Positions 4,985 through 63,789 of a DNA stretch of 64,000 nucleotides are shown piece by piece; the stretch's first letter is position 1; each line of letters opens with the position of its first letter. Source of the DNA: Levilactobacillus brevis (GTDB lineage: Bacteria > Bacillota > Bacilli > Lactobacillales > Lactobacillaceae); the NCBI GenBank assembly GCA_003666485.1, contig CP032931.1, positions 2,170,001 through 2,234,000 of the forward strand. Direction: 5' to 3'. The notes beneath the pieces were generated by a model, which saw nothing but the letters and a program-made list of their open reading frames with translations, searched no databases and was not told the origin of the DNA. A program made the translations under genes and the position numbers.

Positions 4985-5378
4985 AGAATACCCCCACACC
5001 TGTGGGGAATACATAAAAGCCCAGTTAAGGGCAGTTCAACGCGGGGGATCACCCCCACACCTGTGGGGAATACGGAAACCCGCCGCTTTCCAGTGTTTGT
5101 TGCAGAGGATCACCCCCACACCTGTGGGGAATACTTTTGAAGAAGTCAATAATCTATTAGACGTTGAGGATCACCCCCACACCTGTGGGGAATACTGACT
5201 AGCATGGGTGACATGCATGGCACGAGCAGGATCACCCCCACACCTGTGGGGAATACTAAATGAAAATTGAACTGAAAAATCAGCTACTGGGATCACCCCC
5301 ACACCTGTGGGGAATACTCATTATCACGCTGGTAATCACGATTTACCCGAGGATCACCCCCACACCTGTGGGGAATAC
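4985..5378 (-). CRISPR. Type I-E-like CRISPR array, 7 repeats and 6 spacers, no cas genes
   Basis: Seven 28-nt repeats start at 4985, 5046, 5107, 5168, 5229, 5290 and 5351. They are separated by six unique spacers of exactly 33 nt (5013-5045, 5074-5106, 5135-5167, 5196-5228, 5257-5289, 5318-5350), giving a 61-nt period. Repeats 2-7 are identical and begin GGATCACCCCC on the plus strand. On the minus strand they begin GTATTCCCCAC, carry a short palindrome and end GTGATCC, the class seen in type I-E systems of lactobacilli and comparable to the E. coli repeat. The first repeat (4985-5012) differs at three of its first five bases, marking the old, trailer end. Transcription is therefore from the right, on the minus strand. 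No cas gene lies anywhere else in the window. Confidence 0.96.
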
Positions 5379-23031: not shown

Positions 23032-23145
23032 GCTGGCCGCCTACCGTTCGCCAAATATGGGTCGGTTCGCTGTGGGCGGACGGGTCGAGCCAAAGACCGG
23101 TCTCGACACCTCGGCTGAACCCATATTTGGCGAACTCTCGGCTAC
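23032..23145 (+). repeat. Intergenic structured repeat, copy A (short form)
   Basis: A 114-nt short copy of the repeat family described under findings. End arms CGCCAAATATGGG/CCCATATTTGGCG form the closing stem. One internal hairpin, GTCGAG/CTCGAC around the conserved CCAAAG...GGT loop, is kept; the other two hairpins are missing. It lies between ftsY and ylxM. The remaining gap (23146-23315) shows nothing I recognise. Confidence 0.85.
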
Positions 23146-29636: not shown

Positions 29637-30671
29637 CTACTTCAAGGATTCCTTCAACGCCGCCATCTGGTCACCGTGTTCGGCAAAATACGTGACTAAC
29701 TGGTCGGCACTCTTGCTGGCAAGTAGCTCCCTGATCTGACCGATGGTGTTCTTCACGGTTGGTGCCTTCGTGGAACCATGCGTCTTGACCACGGGTGCTT
29801 TCAAGCCCAGCAGGACCGCCCCACCATACTGCGAGTAATCCATGGCACTCTGAACATTTTTGAAGACGGGTTTCAACAGGCCGGCCCCCAACTTACCGCC
29901 GAGACCGCCGCTCATGATTTCCCCTTTGATCAGCTTTAACATGGACAGGGCCGTGCCTTCAATGGCCTTGAGCGTCGCGTTACCAGTAAAGCCATCGGTC
30001 ACGACCACGTCGGCGGCCCCATTTAACAATTCACGCGATTCCACGTTGCCGACAAAATTAATTTCGTCCATGGCTGATAAGGCGTCGTGAATGGCCCGGT
30101 GCGCCTTGTCACCCTTGTCCGCTTCGGTCCCGTTGTTCAAGAGGCCCACCCGGGGATTAGCCACGTGCATCACGGATTGGGCGTAATACTGCCCCATGAT
30201 GGCGTATTGGACCACGTTAAATGGCTTGGTATCGGCGTTAGCCCCCACATCGAGCATGACGAAGCTGGACTGGTCTGGCTTGCGCAAAACGGGCAAAGTC
30301 GTGGTCAACCCGGGCCGGTCGATGCCCTTGATCCGGCCGACGATCAACAGGCCCGCCGCCAACACGGCCCCAGTATTGCCGGCAGAAAAGAACGCGTCGG
30401 CCTGGCCTTCACGCACGGCCGTAGCGGCCAGTACGATGCTGGATTGTTTCTTGCGGCGAACGGCGCGTACCGGTTCGTCTTCCATGGCAATGACTTCCGG
30501 TGCCGAGATCAGCTCGATGCGCGTGCTGTCCTGCAGCAGCGGCTTGACCTGTTCTTCTTGACCATAGAGTAAAAATTCCAGGTCCGGATAAGCATCCCGG
30601 GCCAATTCGATGCCCTTAACGATTTCTGCGGGGGCGTAATCGCCACCCATTGCGTCTACGGCAATTTTCAT
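29637..30671 (-). CDS. plsX: Phosphate acyltransferase PlsX
   Basis: A 344-residue enzyme making acyl-phosphate from acyl-ACP, the first step of the PlsX/PlsY/PlsC route to phosphatidic acid. It begins MKIAVDAMGGDYAP, the family signature, with FFSAGNTGAVLAAGL (about 95), MLDVGANAD (about 140) and VVTDGFTGNATLKAIEG (about 225). AGGAAGG precedes the ATG. Upstream is a 1-kb gap packed with the structured repeats, so its promoter must sit in or just after copy B. Confidence 0.96.
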   Translation of the reverse strand: MKIAVDAMGGDYAPAEIVKGIELARDAYPDLEFLLYGQEEQVKPLLQDSTRIELISAPEVIAMEDEPVRAVRRKKQSSIVLAATAVREGQADAFFSAGNTGAVLAAGLLIVGRIKGIDRPGLTTTLPVLRKPDQSSFVMLDVGANADTKPFNVVQYAIMGQYYAQSVMHVANPRVGLLNNGTEADKGDKAHRAIHDALSAMDEINFVGNVESRELLNGAADVVVTDGFTGNATLKAIEGTALSMLKLIKGEIMSGGLGGKLGAGLLKPVFKNVQSAMDYSQYGGAVLLGLKAPVVKTHGSTKAPTVKNTIGQIRELLASKSADQLVTYFAEHGDQMAALKESLK

Positions 30672-30762
30672 GAGTACCCTTCCTTTGCATCACGTCTACG
30701 TGCTCAGACGGTATTTTTTGGTTTGATTCATTGTTTTAAAATGGCTGACGAGATTGATGGGA

Positions 30763-30948
30763 GCTGGCCGCCTACCGTTCACTAAATATGAGCCGGTTCG
30801 CTGTGGGCGGACGGGGCGAGCCAAAGAGCGGTCTCGCCGCCTCGCCTTTGAGCCGAAACCCACGTCTCAAAGACGCCAGTTTTCTAAGCGCCTTTGCCAC
30901 TTAGAAAACTCCCACGGCTGAGCTCATATTTAGTGAACTCACGGCTAC
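30763..30948 (+). repeat. Intergenic structured repeat, copy B (full)
   Basis: A 186-nt full copy. The closing stem is a perfect 17 bp, GTTCACTAAATATGAGC with its complement. Internal hairpins are GGCGAG/CTCGCC, CTTTGAG/CTCAAAG and AGTTTTCTAAG/CTTAGAAAACT. It lies 91 nt upstream of plsX, opposite to it. Confidence 0.9.
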
Positions 30949-31034
30949 TATCACAGTCCAACCACAACGCTGGCTAATGCGCAAATTACATAGTGACAGG
31001 CTACCACGACCATCGTGCTGGGGGTTAGTGTTAA

Positions 31035-31216
31035 CTGGCCGCCTGCCGTTACGCGAAATTCTAGGCTGGAACGCTGGGGAAGGACCGGGCGAGCCACAGT
31101 ACGGTCTCGCCCTTGCTTTAAGCCGGAAACCCACCGTCTTAAAGTCACCAATTTCGTAGCAAAGTACGCTACGAAATTCCCCGGCTGAGCCTAGATTTCA
31201 CTTCACTCTCGGCTTA
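31035..31216 (+). repeat. Intergenic structured repeat, copy C (second subfamily)
   Basis: A 182-nt copy whose ends carry GAAATTCTAGGCT/AGCCTAGATTTC (one bulge) instead of the CCAAATATG arms. Internal hairpins: GGGCGAG/CTCGCCC, CTTTAAG/CTTAAAG and AATTTCGTAGC/GCTACGAAATT. Confidence 0.88.
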
Positions 31217-31480
31217 GGTGGTCCTCGTCAGCAATACTGACTTAAACCATCCTCGACCACTGAGTCATCGACAGATTCACTCCCACAGTGGCAGTAAAAC
31301 ACTGACCTAGCTGCCAAGGCTACCACCACCGTAGCCGATAGTTCGGCAAAGATGGGCTAGACTTCCCAACCACAAACGTGGCTAGGCGCACACCCCCATG
31401 TAACATCACAGACAACACACATCCGTGAACCTTAAACACACCATGAATCACCAACTGACGGTCGTGGACACCCACCACGT
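31217..31480. other. Spacer between inverted repeat copies C and D, with a decayed repeat end
   Basis: No gene. At 31331-31362 the sequence GTAGCCGATAGTTCGGCAAA continues into GATGGGCTAG and matches the terminal arm of the repeat family in minus orientation with several changes, so it looks like a truncated, decayed copy (J). The word CAGTAAAACAC (31294-31304) also occurs beside copy I near 59677. Confidence 0.55.
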
Positions 31481-31659
31481 CAGCCGTGAGTGGAGCAAAA
31501 CTAGGCTCAGCCGGGGAATTTATCTGCGGTCTTTGCTGATAAATTGGTGTCTTTGAGACGTGTTCTTTCGGCTCAAAGCAAGGTCCGAGACCGCATTTTG
31601 GCTCGGGCCGTCCTCCCCAGCGTTCCAGTCCTAGTTTTGCGGAACGGCAAGGCGGTCAG
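31481..31659 (-). repeat. Intergenic structured repeat, copy D (second subfamily)
   Basis: A 179-nt copy in the opposite orientation to C. In its own sense the closing stem is GCAAAACTAGG/CCTAGTTTTGC, different in sequence from every other copy but paired. Internal hairpins: CCGAG/CTCGG, CTTTGAG/CTCAAAG and AATTTATC/GATAAATT. It ends 34 nt from the recG stop. Confidence 0.87.
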
Positions 31660-31693
31660 TCCCCGCCATGTCGCCAACCACGACCAATAACGT

Positions 31694-33727
31694 CTAGTCC
31701 ATGGTCGTGTTTTGGTGAGCGGTGGTGCTGAGGAAGGCGGCGAGGGCCAGATTGGCATCCTTGTCCGCCCAATCAGGTGCGGCCACCGTTTCCTTTGCGG
31801 CCTGTTGTGCGGCGCTCAAGATGTTCAGGTCCGCCACGGGATCGCCCACCTTGAAGTCGGGCACCCCAGACTGCTTTCTCCCTAGAATATCACCTGGGCC
31901 CCGCAATTCCAAATCCTTTTGCGATAACACGAACCCATCATTGGTACTGGTCATGGTCGTCATCCGTTCCACGGCCAACTGGTTCTTGGGGTCCGCAATC
32001 AAAATACAAGCCGACGCGCGCGTCCCCCGACCGACCCGGCCCCGCAACTGGTGCAGTTGTGCCAAGCCAAAGTGATCGGCGTCATAAATCATCATCAACG
32101 TCGCGTTGGGCACGTCGACCCCGACTTCAATCACGGTCGTGGCGACTAACACCTGGAATTCATTGGCTTTAAACGCCGCCATAATGGCATTTTTCTCGTC
32201 GTCTTTCATTCGGCCGTGTAGGAGACCGACCTTGTACTCGGGTTCAAATTCTTCTTTGAACCGCGCGTAAATGGCCTCGGCGTTTTTCATATCCACGGCC
32301 TCCGACTCCTCAATCAAGGGGGTGACCACGTAGGCTTGCGACCCCGTGCTCAGCTCCGCCTTGACCTGCCGGAGCGTGGCATCGACCTGATTACTACGAA
32401 TCCAGGTGGTCTTGATGGGTTGCCGGCCGGCTGGCAGTTCATTGATGACCGACACGTCCATTTCGCCGTACGCCGTAATGGCCAGCGTCCGCGGAATCGG
32501 CGTTGCCGTCATGGCCAAGACGTCGGGTTGTTGGCCCTTCTCACGCAAGGCTTGACGTTGGTTGACCCCGAAACGGTGTTGCTCATCGATCACGGCCAAC
32601 CCCAACTGATGATAGGTCACTTCCGGTTGAATCAAGGCGTGGGTCCCAATCAAGAGGTCGACGCCGCCTTGGGCAATCTGTGGCAGTAACGTCTTGCGCG
32701 CACTGGCCTTGGTGGCCCCCGTTAGTAAGGCGACGTTGACCGGAAAGTCGGCAAACAGCTTGGCCAAATTATTGGCGTGTTGCTCGGCCAGAATTTCCGT
32801 TGGCGCCATCAAAGCGGCCTGGGCACCCGCGGTAATCGCGGCGTACATGGCGATGGCCGCCACGACGGTCTTCCCACTACCGACATCCCCCTGTAACAGG
32901 CGATTCATGTGGACCGGTCGTTTCAAATCGAAACAGATCTCGTTGACGACCTTCTTTTGGGCGCCCGTCAATTCGTATGGGAGTGAATCGATGAAGGCCT
33001 TGAGCTTGGGCAAATCGTAATGCAACGCCTGACCGTGTAGCGTGTGGTCTTGTTGGCGCACGATTTGTAACCGCAACTCAAATAAGTAAAATTCCTCAAA
33101 CTTCGCCGTCCGCCGCGCGGCTTGGGCGGCCGCACCGTCCGCTGGAAAATGCATGTCGTGGATCATTTGCTTGCGGTGTAACAGGCGGTACTGTTCGCGC
33201 AGGGGTTCGGGAATCAGGTCGACGATCACGGGTTCATAGGCCTCGTAGGCCGACGTTACCAACTTTTGAATCGTGCCCTGACGAATCTCCTTATTGGCCG
33301 GGTAGATCGACCCCATGCCGCTGTCGGCGCTGGCCAAGATCTTCATCCCCGCCAGCGACTGCCGTTTGGCATCAAAGCGACCGTAGACCACGATATCATT
33401 GCCGACTTCCAGCTTGTCCTTCAACCACGGCTGATTGAAGAAGGTCACCGGGATCACGTTGTGTTCGTCCAGCAACAGCCGAAAGTTCAACCGATTTTTC
33501 TTGCGGCCAAAGCGCGTCAAGACAGGCGCACCAGCCACCGTTCCCTTAAGTGTGACCTTAGCTTGGTCGCTCAGTTCTGCCGGATCCTTGGCCTGCAGAT
33601 CCTCGTAACGGAAGGGAAAGTACGTCAAAAGGTCATTGATATTTTCAATCTCCAGGCTGTTTAGCGCCTGAACCCGCTTGGGGCCGACTCCGGCCAATGC
33701 CGCCACGCTATCACTTAAACTTGTCAT
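31694..33727 (-). CDS. recG: ATP-dependent DNA helicase RecG
   Basis: A 677-residue superfamily 2 helicase that reverses stalled forks and migrates Holliday junctions. The N-terminal wedge/OB domain (about 1-230) includes DLLTYFPFRYEDL. The helicase core has LLQGDVGSGKTVVAA (Walker A, about 279), AVIDEQHRFGVNQR (DEQH box, about 382), MTATPIPRTLA, TTVIEVGVDVPNA and QLRGRVGRG. GGGAGG lies upstream of the ATG. It follows fakA in the same direction after a terminator. Confidence 0.97.
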   Translation of the reverse strand: MTSLSDSVAALAGVGPKRVQALNSLEIENINDLLTYFPFRYEDLQAKDPAELSDQAKVTLKGTVAGAPVLTRFGRKKNRLNFRLLLDEHNVIPVTFFNQPWLKDKLEVGNDIVVYGRFDAKRQSLAGMKILASADSGMGSIYPANKEIRQGTIQKLVTSAYEAYEPVIVDLIPEPLREQYRLLHRKQMIHDMHFPADGAAAQAARRTAKFEEFYLFELRLQIVRQQDHTLHGQALHYDLPKLKAFIDSLPYELTGAQKKVVNEICFDLKRPVHMNRLLQGDVGSGKTVVAAIAMYAAITAGAQAALMAPTEILAEQHANNLAKLFADFPVNVALLTGATKASARKTLLPQIAQGGVDLLIGTHALIQPEVTYHQLGLAVIDEQHRFGVNQRQALREKGQQPDVLAMTATPIPRTLAITAYGEMDVSVINELPAGRQPIKTTWIRSNQVDATLRQVKAELSTGSQAYVVTPLIEESEAVDMKNAEAIYARFKEEFEPEYKVGLLHGRMKDDEKNAIMAAFKANEFQVLVATTVIEVGVDVPNATLMMIYDADHFGLAQLHQLRGRVGRGTRASACILIADPKNQLAVERMTTMTSTNDGFVLSQKDLELRGPGDILGRKQSGVPDFKVGDPVADLNILSAAQQAAKETVAAPDWADKDANLALAAFLSTTAHQNTTMD

Positions 33728-36378: not shown

Positions 36379-36561
36379 GCTGGCCGCCTACCGTTACGTG
36401 AAAGTCTAGGCTGGAACGCTGGGGGAGGACGGCCCGAGCCAAAGTTCGGTCTCGAGCCTTGCTTTGAGCCGAAAATTCACGTCTCAAAGTCACCAATTTA
36501 GTAGCCAAAATCGCTACTAAATTCCCCGGCTGAGCCTAGATTTCACTTCACTCACGGCTGA
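36379..36561 (+). repeat. Intergenic structured repeat, copy E (second subfamily)
   Basis: A 183-nt copy starting 17 nt after the rpmB terminator. Closing arms GTGAAAGTCTAGGCT/AGCCTAGATTTCAC (one bulge). Internal hairpins: CGAG/CTCG with the conserved loop, CTTTGAG/CTCAAAG and AATTTAGTAGC/GCTACTAAATT. The 170 nt after it (36562-36731) hold nothing I recognise. Confidence 0.9.
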
Positions 36562-36731: not shown

Positions 36732-36911
36732 TAGCCGAGAGTGAGCTGAATTTGGACTCAGCCGTGGGCGTTTTCAAGTGGTCTGCTTGGAAACTGGCGT
36801 CTTCGAGACGCGATTTTCGGCTCGAAGCGAGGTTGAAGACCGATTTTTGGCTTCGACCGGTCCTTCCCACAGCGTCACGGTCCAAATTTGGCGAACGGTA
36901 AGGCGACCAGC
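36732..36911 (-). repeat. Intergenic structured repeat, copy F
   Basis: A 180-nt copy in inverted orientation relative to E. In its own sense: closing arms AATTTGGAC/GTCCAAATT, internal hairpins GAAG/CTTC, CTTCGAG/CTCGAAG and GTTTCCAAG/CTTGAAAAC (one mismatch). Confidence 0.87.
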
Positions 36912-39398: not shown

Positions 39399-39645
39399 GC
39401 AACGCCTCCTTTATGGGTTTGTTTCCAGTTTACACTACTTTTCAGGCTGGCACTAGTTTTACTGTAGTTGTGTTAAATATCACAACTAAGCCAGTCGTCT
39501 GACAACACATCCCGCAACGCGTTCCTCAGAGCAGGCGGAACCCCTGGCAGCCGCAGGTAACTGACACGTTCAGTACGGCAATTTGACGAGTGGTCGTCAA
39601 TCAATATGCGCTTAACCATTGGCACGGCCGTTTTCCCATCCACGA
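39399..39645. other. Gap between pknB and rsgA
   Basis: About 250 nt without a supported gene. A 61-codon minus frame (39473-39658) overlaps the pknB terminator and lacks a ribosome binding site, so I do not call it. The rsgA promoter should lie here; TGTAGTTGTG...CACAACTA (39463-39489) forms an inverted repeat, GTTGTG/CACAAC. Confidence 0.5.
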
Positions 39646-44838: not shown

Positions 44839-45057
44839 GCTGTCCGCCTTGCCGTTACGTGAAACTCTGTCCGCCTACCGTTCGCCAAATATGGGCCGGA
44901 ACGCTGTGGGCGGACGGGTCGAGCCAAAGCGCGGTCTCGACACCTCGCCTTTGAGCCGAAAATCACGTCTCAAAGACGCCAGTTGCCTAAGCGGCATGAA
45001 TCGCGCCGCTAAGACAACTCCCACGGCTGAGCCCATACTTGGCGAACTCTCGGCTAC
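44839..45057 (+). repeat. Intergenic structured repeat, copy G (mosaic)
   Basis: A full copy at 44869-45057 preceded by an extra 30-nt fragment (44839-44868) matching the 5' end of the second subfamily (TGCCGTTACGTGAAA-like). The copy therefore looks like a mosaic or an insertion of one repeat into another. Main closing arms CGCCAAATATGGGC/GCCCATACTTGGCG (one mismatch). Internal hairpins: GTCGAG/CTCGAC, CTTTGAG/CTCAAAG and AGTTG-CTAAGCGGC/GCCGCTAAG-CAACT. The remainder of the gap (45058-45264) holds nothing I recognise. Confidence 0.88.
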
Positions 45058-45264
45058 GTTAGCAGTTGCCAGCAACGATGCCTACTCACACCGACAATAA
45101 CTGTCAGCGTTTTAGTGAGCACCGCCACTGTTGCTGGTGAACTAGCAGGAATGACACCGGCATAGAACGCTCAAGCGTCTAATTACTACCGACTATCCCG
45201 CTAACGATCAACAACCCGTTTTACCTCTTGGCAACAACCGCCGGAGACAACTGACATGCTCTTG

Positions 45265-59319: not shown

Positions 59320-59690
59320 GAAGTACTTCCTCCCGTAAATTTCAAGTTATCTTACATTTTAGCATAGTTGACCTGAAAACGGGACTGCATCACGTCGCAA
59401 AATGAACCGCACACTACCCGTTGAATGACTCAACTTTTTGTCGTTAAAATGGGCCGGCTAGGCGACAAGATTAGTCCGCGAACGTAAGATGGTCCGTGCT
59501 GGCCGCCTGACCGTTCGCCCACTAACGTAGTGAACGGTACCATTCCAGCGATATTCCCCTAACTGAGCCGACACAGGGGCACTAAATACTGGCGCCGGTA
59601 TTGCCACTTGTCAGTACTCCCGAATCAGGTCAGATCTGATTGCAGTTCACCTGTCACCAAGGATTAGCCCAATTACAGTAAAACACCCCC
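59320..59690. other. Gap upstream of folD with a decayed repeat fragment
   Basis: About 370 nt without a gene. GCTGGCCGCCTGACCGTTCG at 59498-59517 matches the outer end of the structured repeat, and weaker matches (CATTCCAGCG, then CTGAGCC) follow to about 59570, so this is a decayed copy (H) in plus orientation. CAGTAAAACAC near 59677 recurs at 31294. Confidence 0.5.
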
Positions 59691-59884
59691 GTAGCCGGGA
59701 GTCCGCCAAATATGAGCTCAGCCGTGGGAGTTCCCTTAGCGGCACGGTTCACGCCGGTTAGGGAACTGGCGACTTTGAGACGTGGTCTTCGGCTCAAAGT
59801 CGAGGAGACGAGACCGCTCTGTGGCTCGTCCCGCCGCCCACCGCGTTCCGGCTCATATTTGGCGGACGGACGGCGGCCAGCTAC
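59691..59884 (-). repeat. Intergenic structured repeat, copy I (full)
   Basis: A 194-nt full copy. In its own sense the closing stem is a perfect 17 bp, GTCCGCCAAATATGAGC with its complement. Internal hairpins: GACGAG/CTCGTC, CTTTGAG/CTCAAAG and AGTTCCCT/AGGGAACT extended by CGGC/GCCG-type pairs. Both ends read GTAGC outward, giving terminal inverted repeats. Confidence 0.9.
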
Positions 59885-59926
59885 TTATTACCAGGTGTTT
59901 TGGCATTCACAACCTTTAGTCAATAC

Positions 59927-63672: not shown

Positions 63673-63789
63673 GTATGTGCACCTCCTTCATATAATTAGA
63701 CTTAGACTCGCCGAAAACGAGTGCTCCGCAAGCGGAAAACTTAAAACTCGTCCCGAGCGGTTGCAGCTGTGGAAGTCCACAAATACAAC
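63673..63789 (-). promoter_or_regulatory. 5' leader of rplU (probable L21 leader)
   Basis: A 117-nt leader with two visible hairpins on the minus strand, TCCGC-TTGC-GGA (about 63723-63735) and ACTCG/CGAGT (about 63706-63723). Firmicutes carry a described L21 leader here. Assignment rests on position and hairpins; I did not match a consensus. Confidence 0.5.

Follow-up and report, generated by a model that had tools for sequence, protein, structure and literature searches.

Structured intergenic repeats in Levilactobacillus are probable arms of a MITE with IS4-like ends and a fold that seems to be kept after insertion

The window, a 64-kb stretch of a 3.1-Mb Levilactobacillus genome, contained eight full or near-full copies of a large structured repeat, together with fragments. 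The copies, termed arms or units here, were located with a covariance model of the arm (R1). The arm under study was on the plus strand at 44867-45056, and the features of the family in the window were as follows.

23033-23144, plus strand: truncated A2 arm, inner hairpins deleted (R1, 85.8 bits)
30764-30947, plus strand: A2-type arm in the recG-plsX insert (R1, 175.1 bits)
31035-31215, plus strand: A1-like arm (script label A'), left partner of 31481-31659 (R1, 177.8 bits)
31331-31362, minus strand: inner-end fragment of an arm, assigned by eye
31481-31659, minus strand: A1-type arm, right arm, with the recG stop codon 35 nt from its outer end (R1, 170.1 bits)
36380-36560, plus strand: A1 arm, left arm of an inverted pair, with a same-site copy in L. 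angrenensis at L120:7159-7339 (R1, 199 bits)
36732-36910, minus strand: A' arm, right partner of 36380-36560 (R1, 150.6 bits)
39519-39557, plus strand: outer-end fragment of a B arm, 94.9% match to the B seed
44839-44866: start of a second, nested arm
44867-45056, plus strand: A2 arm, the feature under study (R1, 183.3 bits)
59498-59570, plus strand: fragment with the outer end of the left arm, from the decayed pair of 59692-59880, assigned by eye
59692-59880, minus strand: A2-type arm, right arm of a decayed pair (R1, 166.3 bits)
59906-59919, minus strand: probable remnant of a terminal inverted repeat (CTAAAGGTTGTGAA), missed by the 2-mismatch scan

Eight full or near-full copies and two decayed pieces, all in gene-free DNA, had been described in a first-pass annotation of the window. 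R1 recovered all eight copies with limits within a few bases of those given earlier (199 to 85.8 bits), and the nested arm start explains why the unit under study had been begun at 44839. Two additional R1 matches in the window were antisense echoes of the listed units. Both decayed pieces were genuine when inspected by eye, 59498-59570 starting with the outer end of a plus-strand unit and 31331-31362 being the inner end of a minus-strand unit. No unit overlapped a called gene of at least 90 aa, with ORFs shorter than 150 aa lying mostly on units (for example, 44849-45100) set aside from this check. The earlier observation of a structured repeat family was confirmed. What it had missed was that each unit is one arm of a bigger inverted-pair element, of which further pieces are present in the window.

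The fold was derived from an alignment of 55 units, which gave an RNAalifold consensus of 41 pairs, 24 of them changed on both sides, and from which R1 was built. The predicted fold of this arm (A) was composed of a long stem and three hairpins, and the loops were conserved across the alignment. Of the common plan proposed in the first-pass annotation, the long stem with three hairpins was modelled, whereas a fourth hairpin, which differs in length between subfamilies, was outside R1 and visible only in the alignment. Single copies folded better than their shuffles, with z values of -6.0 and -5.2 as RNA and -3.9 as DNA. Covariation was measured on the best 150 of 179 matches (145 distinct copies, which came from the own genome, from congeneric species, and from a single Lactiplantibacillus locus), in an alignment fitted to R1 and thus leaning towards structure. 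Standard pairs filled 97.6% of the paired cells, compared with 84.6% after shuffling and 32-52% when the columns were slid by 1-3 positions. Changes on both sides were found in 32 of the 41 pairs, a result equalled in none of 500 shuffles, and 687 cells carried double changes, compared with 158 in the control. The paired stem changes reported earlier were therefore above both the shuffled and the slid controls. Close copies showed single changes first, with 4 single and 0 double changes below 4% divergence and 32 and 6 at 4-8%, and about 80% of later changes were double. This order indicates that compensation was stepwise.

The units were often arranged as inverted pairs with their outer ends (CTGGCCGCC) pointing outward, as seen by flank alignment. 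Pairing was examined in the window and 20 stretches of the own genome, where 76 units above about 50 bits were kept from 103 matches; 16 of the 20 stretches were picked because they contained units, and the four at round positions contained 2 units. Among opposite-strand neighbours closer than 800 nt, 17 of 18 were in the plus/minus arrangement, and the single minus/plus case was located between two such pairs; three same-strand neighbours were equally close. An inverted A partner was present within 900 nt downstream for 38 of the 76 units. For 13 of the 38 units lacking one, a B end was found downstream (1 upstream). The B module, about 200 nt long, was found after masking A and occupied the position of the right arm. 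Its reverse complement had loop motifs similar to those of A by eye, a comparable multi-hairpin fold was predicted for it, and R1 scored it weakly (17-19 bits); the A and B arms are likely to be akin. Partners within a pair resembled each other less (0.728, n = 20) than did units drawn at random from the genome (0.765; p about 0.006 in a resampling that ignores relatedness). Outside the 36732-36910 arm, the subterminal sequence was similar to that of other copies when flanks were compared by eye.

The window genome contained at least 150 units, and all 150 that were scored matched R1, the weakest with an E-value of 3.6e-34; Blast searches of the own genome with two of the window copies gave at least 47 and at least 41 matches. 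A strand bias by replichore was not found among the 150 own-genome matches listed, with the origin and terminus assumed. Building a covariance model and running it on related genomes had been proposed earlier, and the resulting R1 matched all eight window units and most Levilactobacillus genomes. Matches were obtained in 34 of 58 genomes, namely 33 of 35 from Levilactobacillus and one of another family, which had two weak matches. G021 and G031 were the only genus genomes with no R1 match, in a search whose filters lose weak matches and in which the best 46 candidates at most were scored. G021 carried a Y1 transposase. Among 80 named RecG loci, matches were also present in six Lactiplantibacillus species (L152, L154, L156, L158, L159, and L168) and in a Lactobacillus MAG (L163), the best of these scoring 128.8 bits. 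Plasmid and phage collections gave no match to queries of one arm each or of the whole element, and in viral contigs the loop motif occurred in two stretches, with no unit in either by R1. By RecG, the nearest named relatives were L. angrenensis (99%) and L. suantsaiihabitans (98%), the sister species represented by genomes G030 and G033.

When own-genome stretches were compared with these two sister species, dozens of near-uniform matches were obtained, each about 470 bp long and ending at fixed limits. In 33 aligned copies of 40 fetched, homology spanned CTGAAGGTTGAAAG to CTTTCAACCTTCAG and was lost beyond. The sister-species copies were thus bounded by 14-bp terminal inverted repeats, CTGAAGGTTGAAAG, of which a one-base variant, CTAAAGGTTGAAAG, was also frequent as a copy end. 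Both ends were present, with at most 3 mismatches each, in 22 of 35 copies examined, and these were 624-644 bp long. The intact layout was a 14-bp repeat, a subterminal stretch of about 65-80 nt, an A arm (about 190 nt) whose outer end faced outward, a linker of about 100 nt, an inverted B arm, subterminal sequence, and the second repeat, so that the ends began about 80-90 nt outside the arms. Exact repeats of 6-9 bp abutted the ends in 14 of the 22 two-ended copies, compared with 7 of 462 mismatched pairings; the duplications were 6 bp in two copies, 7 bp in five, 8 bp in six, and 9 bp in one. A stricter score fixed at 8 bp gave 7/22 and 4/462, respectively. Exact duplications were not found in 8 of the 22 copies. 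An intact copy of about 640 bp, with repeats and mostly 7-8 bp duplications, is thereby shown in two sister species. The left flank ended in TAA in 9 of the 22 copies, and in the own genome the outer ends of units were often 10-35 nt past a stop codon. The longest ORF overlapping the element was 82 aa in the one copy examined, and the element had no transposase gene of its own.

With at most one mismatch, the 14-mer was found 101 times in G030 and 86 times in G033, compared with 0-1 for the reversed control. Considering 100 of the 101 G030 ends, 20 pairs were less than 1 kb apart, 14 of them spanning 615-644 bp and six being deletion forms of 277-468 bp. The own genome had only 4 such matches. 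In the window, the 14-mer was absent at up to 2 mismatches, and none of the copies had its two ends or showed a target duplication. Looser remnants of the ends were detected beside 3 of the 76 sampled own units, with none for the reversed control; the one located in the window was at 59906-59919. The window copies therefore look old, with their ends mostly lost. Target duplications directly at the arm boundaries, considered for own-genome pairs, were absent because the true ends lie further out. The link of the window arms to the intact element rests on homology of the arms and subterminal sequences to the sister-species copies, and would place the repeats in a non-autonomous DNA transposon (MITE), as its arms. 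The earlier statement that no described family was recognised held in that no Rfam match was obtained, either at the gathering score or at E-values up to 5, and no description of the family was found in the literature searched, although a named IS or MITE entry may exist in ISfinder; it did not hold in that the repeats appear to be arms of a MITE with IS4-like ends.

In three copies from G030 and G033 (L336, L337, and L345), a further long imperfect palindrome (GTGCGCCAACAGGCAACTGG...) replaced part of the A arm; by eye, it may be another small element nested within the MITE. At G030:C34:158905-160966 (L335), considered as an autonomous copy, two MITE copies were instead seen by eye to flank two chromosomal genes, one like that of a PAP2 phosphatase and the other like that of a methyltransferase, and the whole might move as a composite.

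A source of the transposase was sought from the 60 unpaired ends of G030, from which 40 inward stretches were fetched. MITE-like sequence was present in 36 of the 40. In L503, the end adjoined a C-terminal transposase fragment broken by another IS, and L468 and L482 contained ordinary-looking ORFs. Of 35 genus genomes, 10 contained relatives of this transposase at E-values of 1e-10 or below. The seven closest (L507-L513) all had CTRAAGGTTGAAAG, at 0-1 mismatch, no more than about 200 nt from the stretch that matched, and four more distant relatives had the variant CTGAAACTTGAAAG or a sequence near it (2-3 mismatches). The element at L510 was complete, 1,559 bp long, with perfect CTAAAGGTTGAAAG ends, an 8-bp duplication (CTGATTAA), and a transposase of 450 aa assigned to the IS4 family (NF049925, E-value 5.6e-141). 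Its ends and duplication resemble those of the MITE, and the consensus ends of MITE and IS were one base apart. Unlike the MITE, the IS carries a transposase gene and lacks internal arms; R1 gave no match at 9 of 11 IS loci and two weak matches outside the ends. From these similarities, the IS4-family element is likely to be the mobiliser. Weighing against this, the two elements shared little past the 14 bp, and mobilisation in trans is putative. No transposase match was obtained in the own genome, which fits the old copies there, or in G033, and the transposase of G030 was a broken fragment. The many well-kept ends of G033 would then mean that the source was recently lost or that a relative was missed by the search.

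Inverted doublets could also be giant REPINs moved by a Y1/RAYT transposase. Terminal repeats and target duplications, both present here, do not fit Y1 transposition. No Y1 match was obtained in G002, G004, G011, or G016, which carried 37, 28, at least 46, and 36 units, respectively, and a Y1/RAYT partner was rejected accordingly. Excerpts of two reports (PMC3116915 and PMC3733652) describe REPINs and REP dimers with inverted doublets, remnant or decayed singlets, intergenic sites, and, in many families, dissimilar partners, as here. The REPs in an excerpt of PMC3733652 are 20-40 bp long and RAYT-linked, in contrast to arms of about 190 nt in an element with terminal repeats and duplications. 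Taken together, a REPIN origin is extremely improbable.

A comparison of loci for the presence or absence of the repeats had also been suggested, and it was made between species. Between recG and plsX, the aligned segments were separated by 1,007-1,027 nt in the window and by 2-32 nt in all 27 other comparable genus loci, which include two labelled Lactobacillus sp.; the insert was therefore present in the window and the site closed in 27/27. The window insert (30671-31694) was composed of three arms and one fragment. L. angrenensis also had a similar insert at this site (L120 12031-12820), and the contig of L. suantsaiihabitans stopped at the junction with a weak match. The stretch preceding plsX, at 30671-30760, might contain a new promoter. 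The plsX-acpP site was empty in the window, whereas differing remnants of elements, or short stretches of additional DNA, occupied it in L122-L124, L127, L128, L134, L135, and L138; it would be either a site targeted repeatedly or one from which an old insertion disappeared on several occasions. In L122-L124, the insert, a more distant member, seemed by eye to be bounded by GGGTTAA...TTAACCC, and more distant subfamilies may use other ends. Several inserts were considered as autonomous copies and rejected: L124 at 2.6-4.5 kb appeared, by eye, to be a disrupted MFS gene accompanied by a B-like arm, and the ORFs in L127, L131, L137, L138, and L147 resembled ordinary genes.

To measure divergence after insertion, arms at the same site in different species were compared in 13 cases, which involved 10 distinct own units (three used twice) picked by position and strand in syntenic stretches, with non-fitting pairs left out. 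The modelled pairs diverged by 9.9% per base (105/1060) and the other arm positions, an unpaired class that includes the variable hairpin, by 19.1% (250/1311). The inner spacer diverged by at least 22% (204/921 aligned bases, an underestimate as gaps were uncounted), and third codon positions of the same stretches were 69-72% identical (about 29% diverged). Since paired sites changed more slowly than unpaired sites, spacer, and third codon positions, the arms were apparently constrained after insertion. Of 527 pairs, 36 were changed on both sides, 32 of which were still Watson-Crick, and 31 on one side, including 13 G-U and 13 A-C. The three most diverged comparisons had 48/102, 26/89, and 28/106 unpaired changes, and another copy may have replaced the original in these. 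Leaving them out gave 148/1014 unpaired and 58/818 paired changes, with 18 double changes (17 kept) and 21 single. The constraint seemed to continue even where the ends are lost. The fold thus seems, on comparative grounds, to be kept after landing, an unusual behaviour that points to a possible second function.

Paired changes might also be produced by palindrome correction through template switching, with no selection on the fold. Double changes did occur between same-site copies, as correction would allow; this origin is nevertheless improbable, since close copies show single changes first and a slower change of paired than of unpaired sites is not predicted by correction alone. The first-pass annotation had proposed either selection on the fold or a mobility mechanism that needs it, and this interpretation was partly supported: constraint was found, apparently also at orthologous sites after insertion, whereas the 14-bp ends would by themselves explain mobility, and no result here demonstrates that mobility needs the fold.

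In order to ask in which strand and which nucleic acid the fold acts, wobble pairs were counted. RNase P and tmRNA from these and related genomes, counted on the same kind of fold, had G-U to A-C ratios of 414:15 (28-fold) and 339:6 (56-fold), respectively. In the A arm, both types together occupied only 162 of 5931 cells, with 100 A-C and 62 G-U on the modelled strand, or 99 and 37 when one junction pair was left out. With the same omission, 61 sequences had an A-C excess and 14 a G-U excess. The A-C to G-U counts by gene setting were similar for sense (17:5), antisense (20:8), and convergent (14:3) arms, with 2:4 for divergent ones, and the bias was uneven by helix, helix 4 being reversed. 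In 17 copies of the B arm, G-U and A-C numbered 38 and 5 on the outward strand and 5 and 25 when folded on the opposite strand. A minus-strand RNAalifold of the A arm gave 204 G-U to 7 A-C, much of it from pairs in the variable hairpin and a loop, and was not used as evidence. The wobble counts lean towards an outward RNA with strict pairing, short of proof.

It is tentatively possible that the arms are a functional RNA, such as a regulatory RNA or UTR element read from the outward strand, which the MITE merely spreads. The one-sided wobble of the B arm, the lean of the A arm in the same direction, the conserved loops, and the constraint after insertion all agree with such a role. It is less easily reconciled with an A-arm bias that is modest, uneven, and far below that of RNase P and tmRNA, with the equal numbers of G-U and A-C among one-sided same-site changes, and with flanking genes that showed no co-directional orientation bias (21 sense vs 27 antisense). 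No consistent promoter or terminator was found in the three copies scanned.

The strict Watson-Crick pairing of the A arm and the same-site wobble symmetry would be expected if the fold acted as DNA, as a cruciform or single-strand hairpin in transposition or replication. This reading is rather unlikely. IS4-type ends should suffice for movement, which counts against a need for the fold in transposition; the IS copies contain no R1 arm, the constraint seems to persist where the ends are lost, and the B-arm wobble is clearly one-sided. The dissimilarity of pair partners (0.728 vs 0.765) recalls many REP heterodimers in an excerpt of PMC3733652 and is in keeping with a DNA role.

The explanation that best accommodates these results is that the repeats are the arms of a Levilactobacillus MITE, probably IS4-mobilised, whose fold seems to be kept after insertion, and as a whole it is very probably correct. 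An IS4-family transposase of the NF049925 type, with ends one base different, would move or have moved the MITE by cut-and-paste. In the window species, the ends of most copies would have decayed with age, leaving the arms visible. The folded arm would then act after landing, most likely in gene-adjacent transcripts by insulating or stabilising them; this is the weakest step, its main alternative being that the fold acts in DNA. It is a more doubtful extension that the MITE seeded well over 100 structured arms, many kept by selection, as an RNA or DNA module that outlives a dead transposon. If true, the outward wobble of the B arm, and modestly that of the A arm, would mark two outward-reading folded RNAs per element.

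Covariation in repeated intergenic sequence is usually taken as evidence for RNA. Here, the covarying repeats appear to belong to a transposon, yet the fold seems to be maintained after insertion. Rfam structured RNAs likewise have covariation and conserved loops, and the arms match no Rfam model. In the excerpts of PMC10969869 and PMC3446304, bacterial MITEs such as bcr1-bcr3 of Bacillus cereus, SPRITE/BOX of pneumococcus, and QMITE2 of Coxiella are short, intergenic, and multicopy, with stable predicted folds, terminal repeats, and short duplications (7-9 bp in QMITE2). As far as these excerpts go, the Levilactobacillus element is likewise short, intergenic, and multicopy, with terminal repeats and short duplications, and adds two large multi-hairpin inverted arms in which strong compensatory change seemingly continues after insertion. 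A single genome of this food-fermentation genus carries at least 150 copies, and some sites are common to species, so that whether the arm benefits its host or itself can be tested.

Two other features were observed in the window. In a CRISPR array at 4988-5378, a repeat of about 28 bp (GGATCACCCCCACACCTGTGGGGAATAC) occurred seven times, with intervening spacers of about 33 bp, and a similar array was present elsewhere in the own genome (L207, about 1822-2619). A ribosomal protein L21 leader (RF00559) was located at 63694-63772 with a score of 63 bits.
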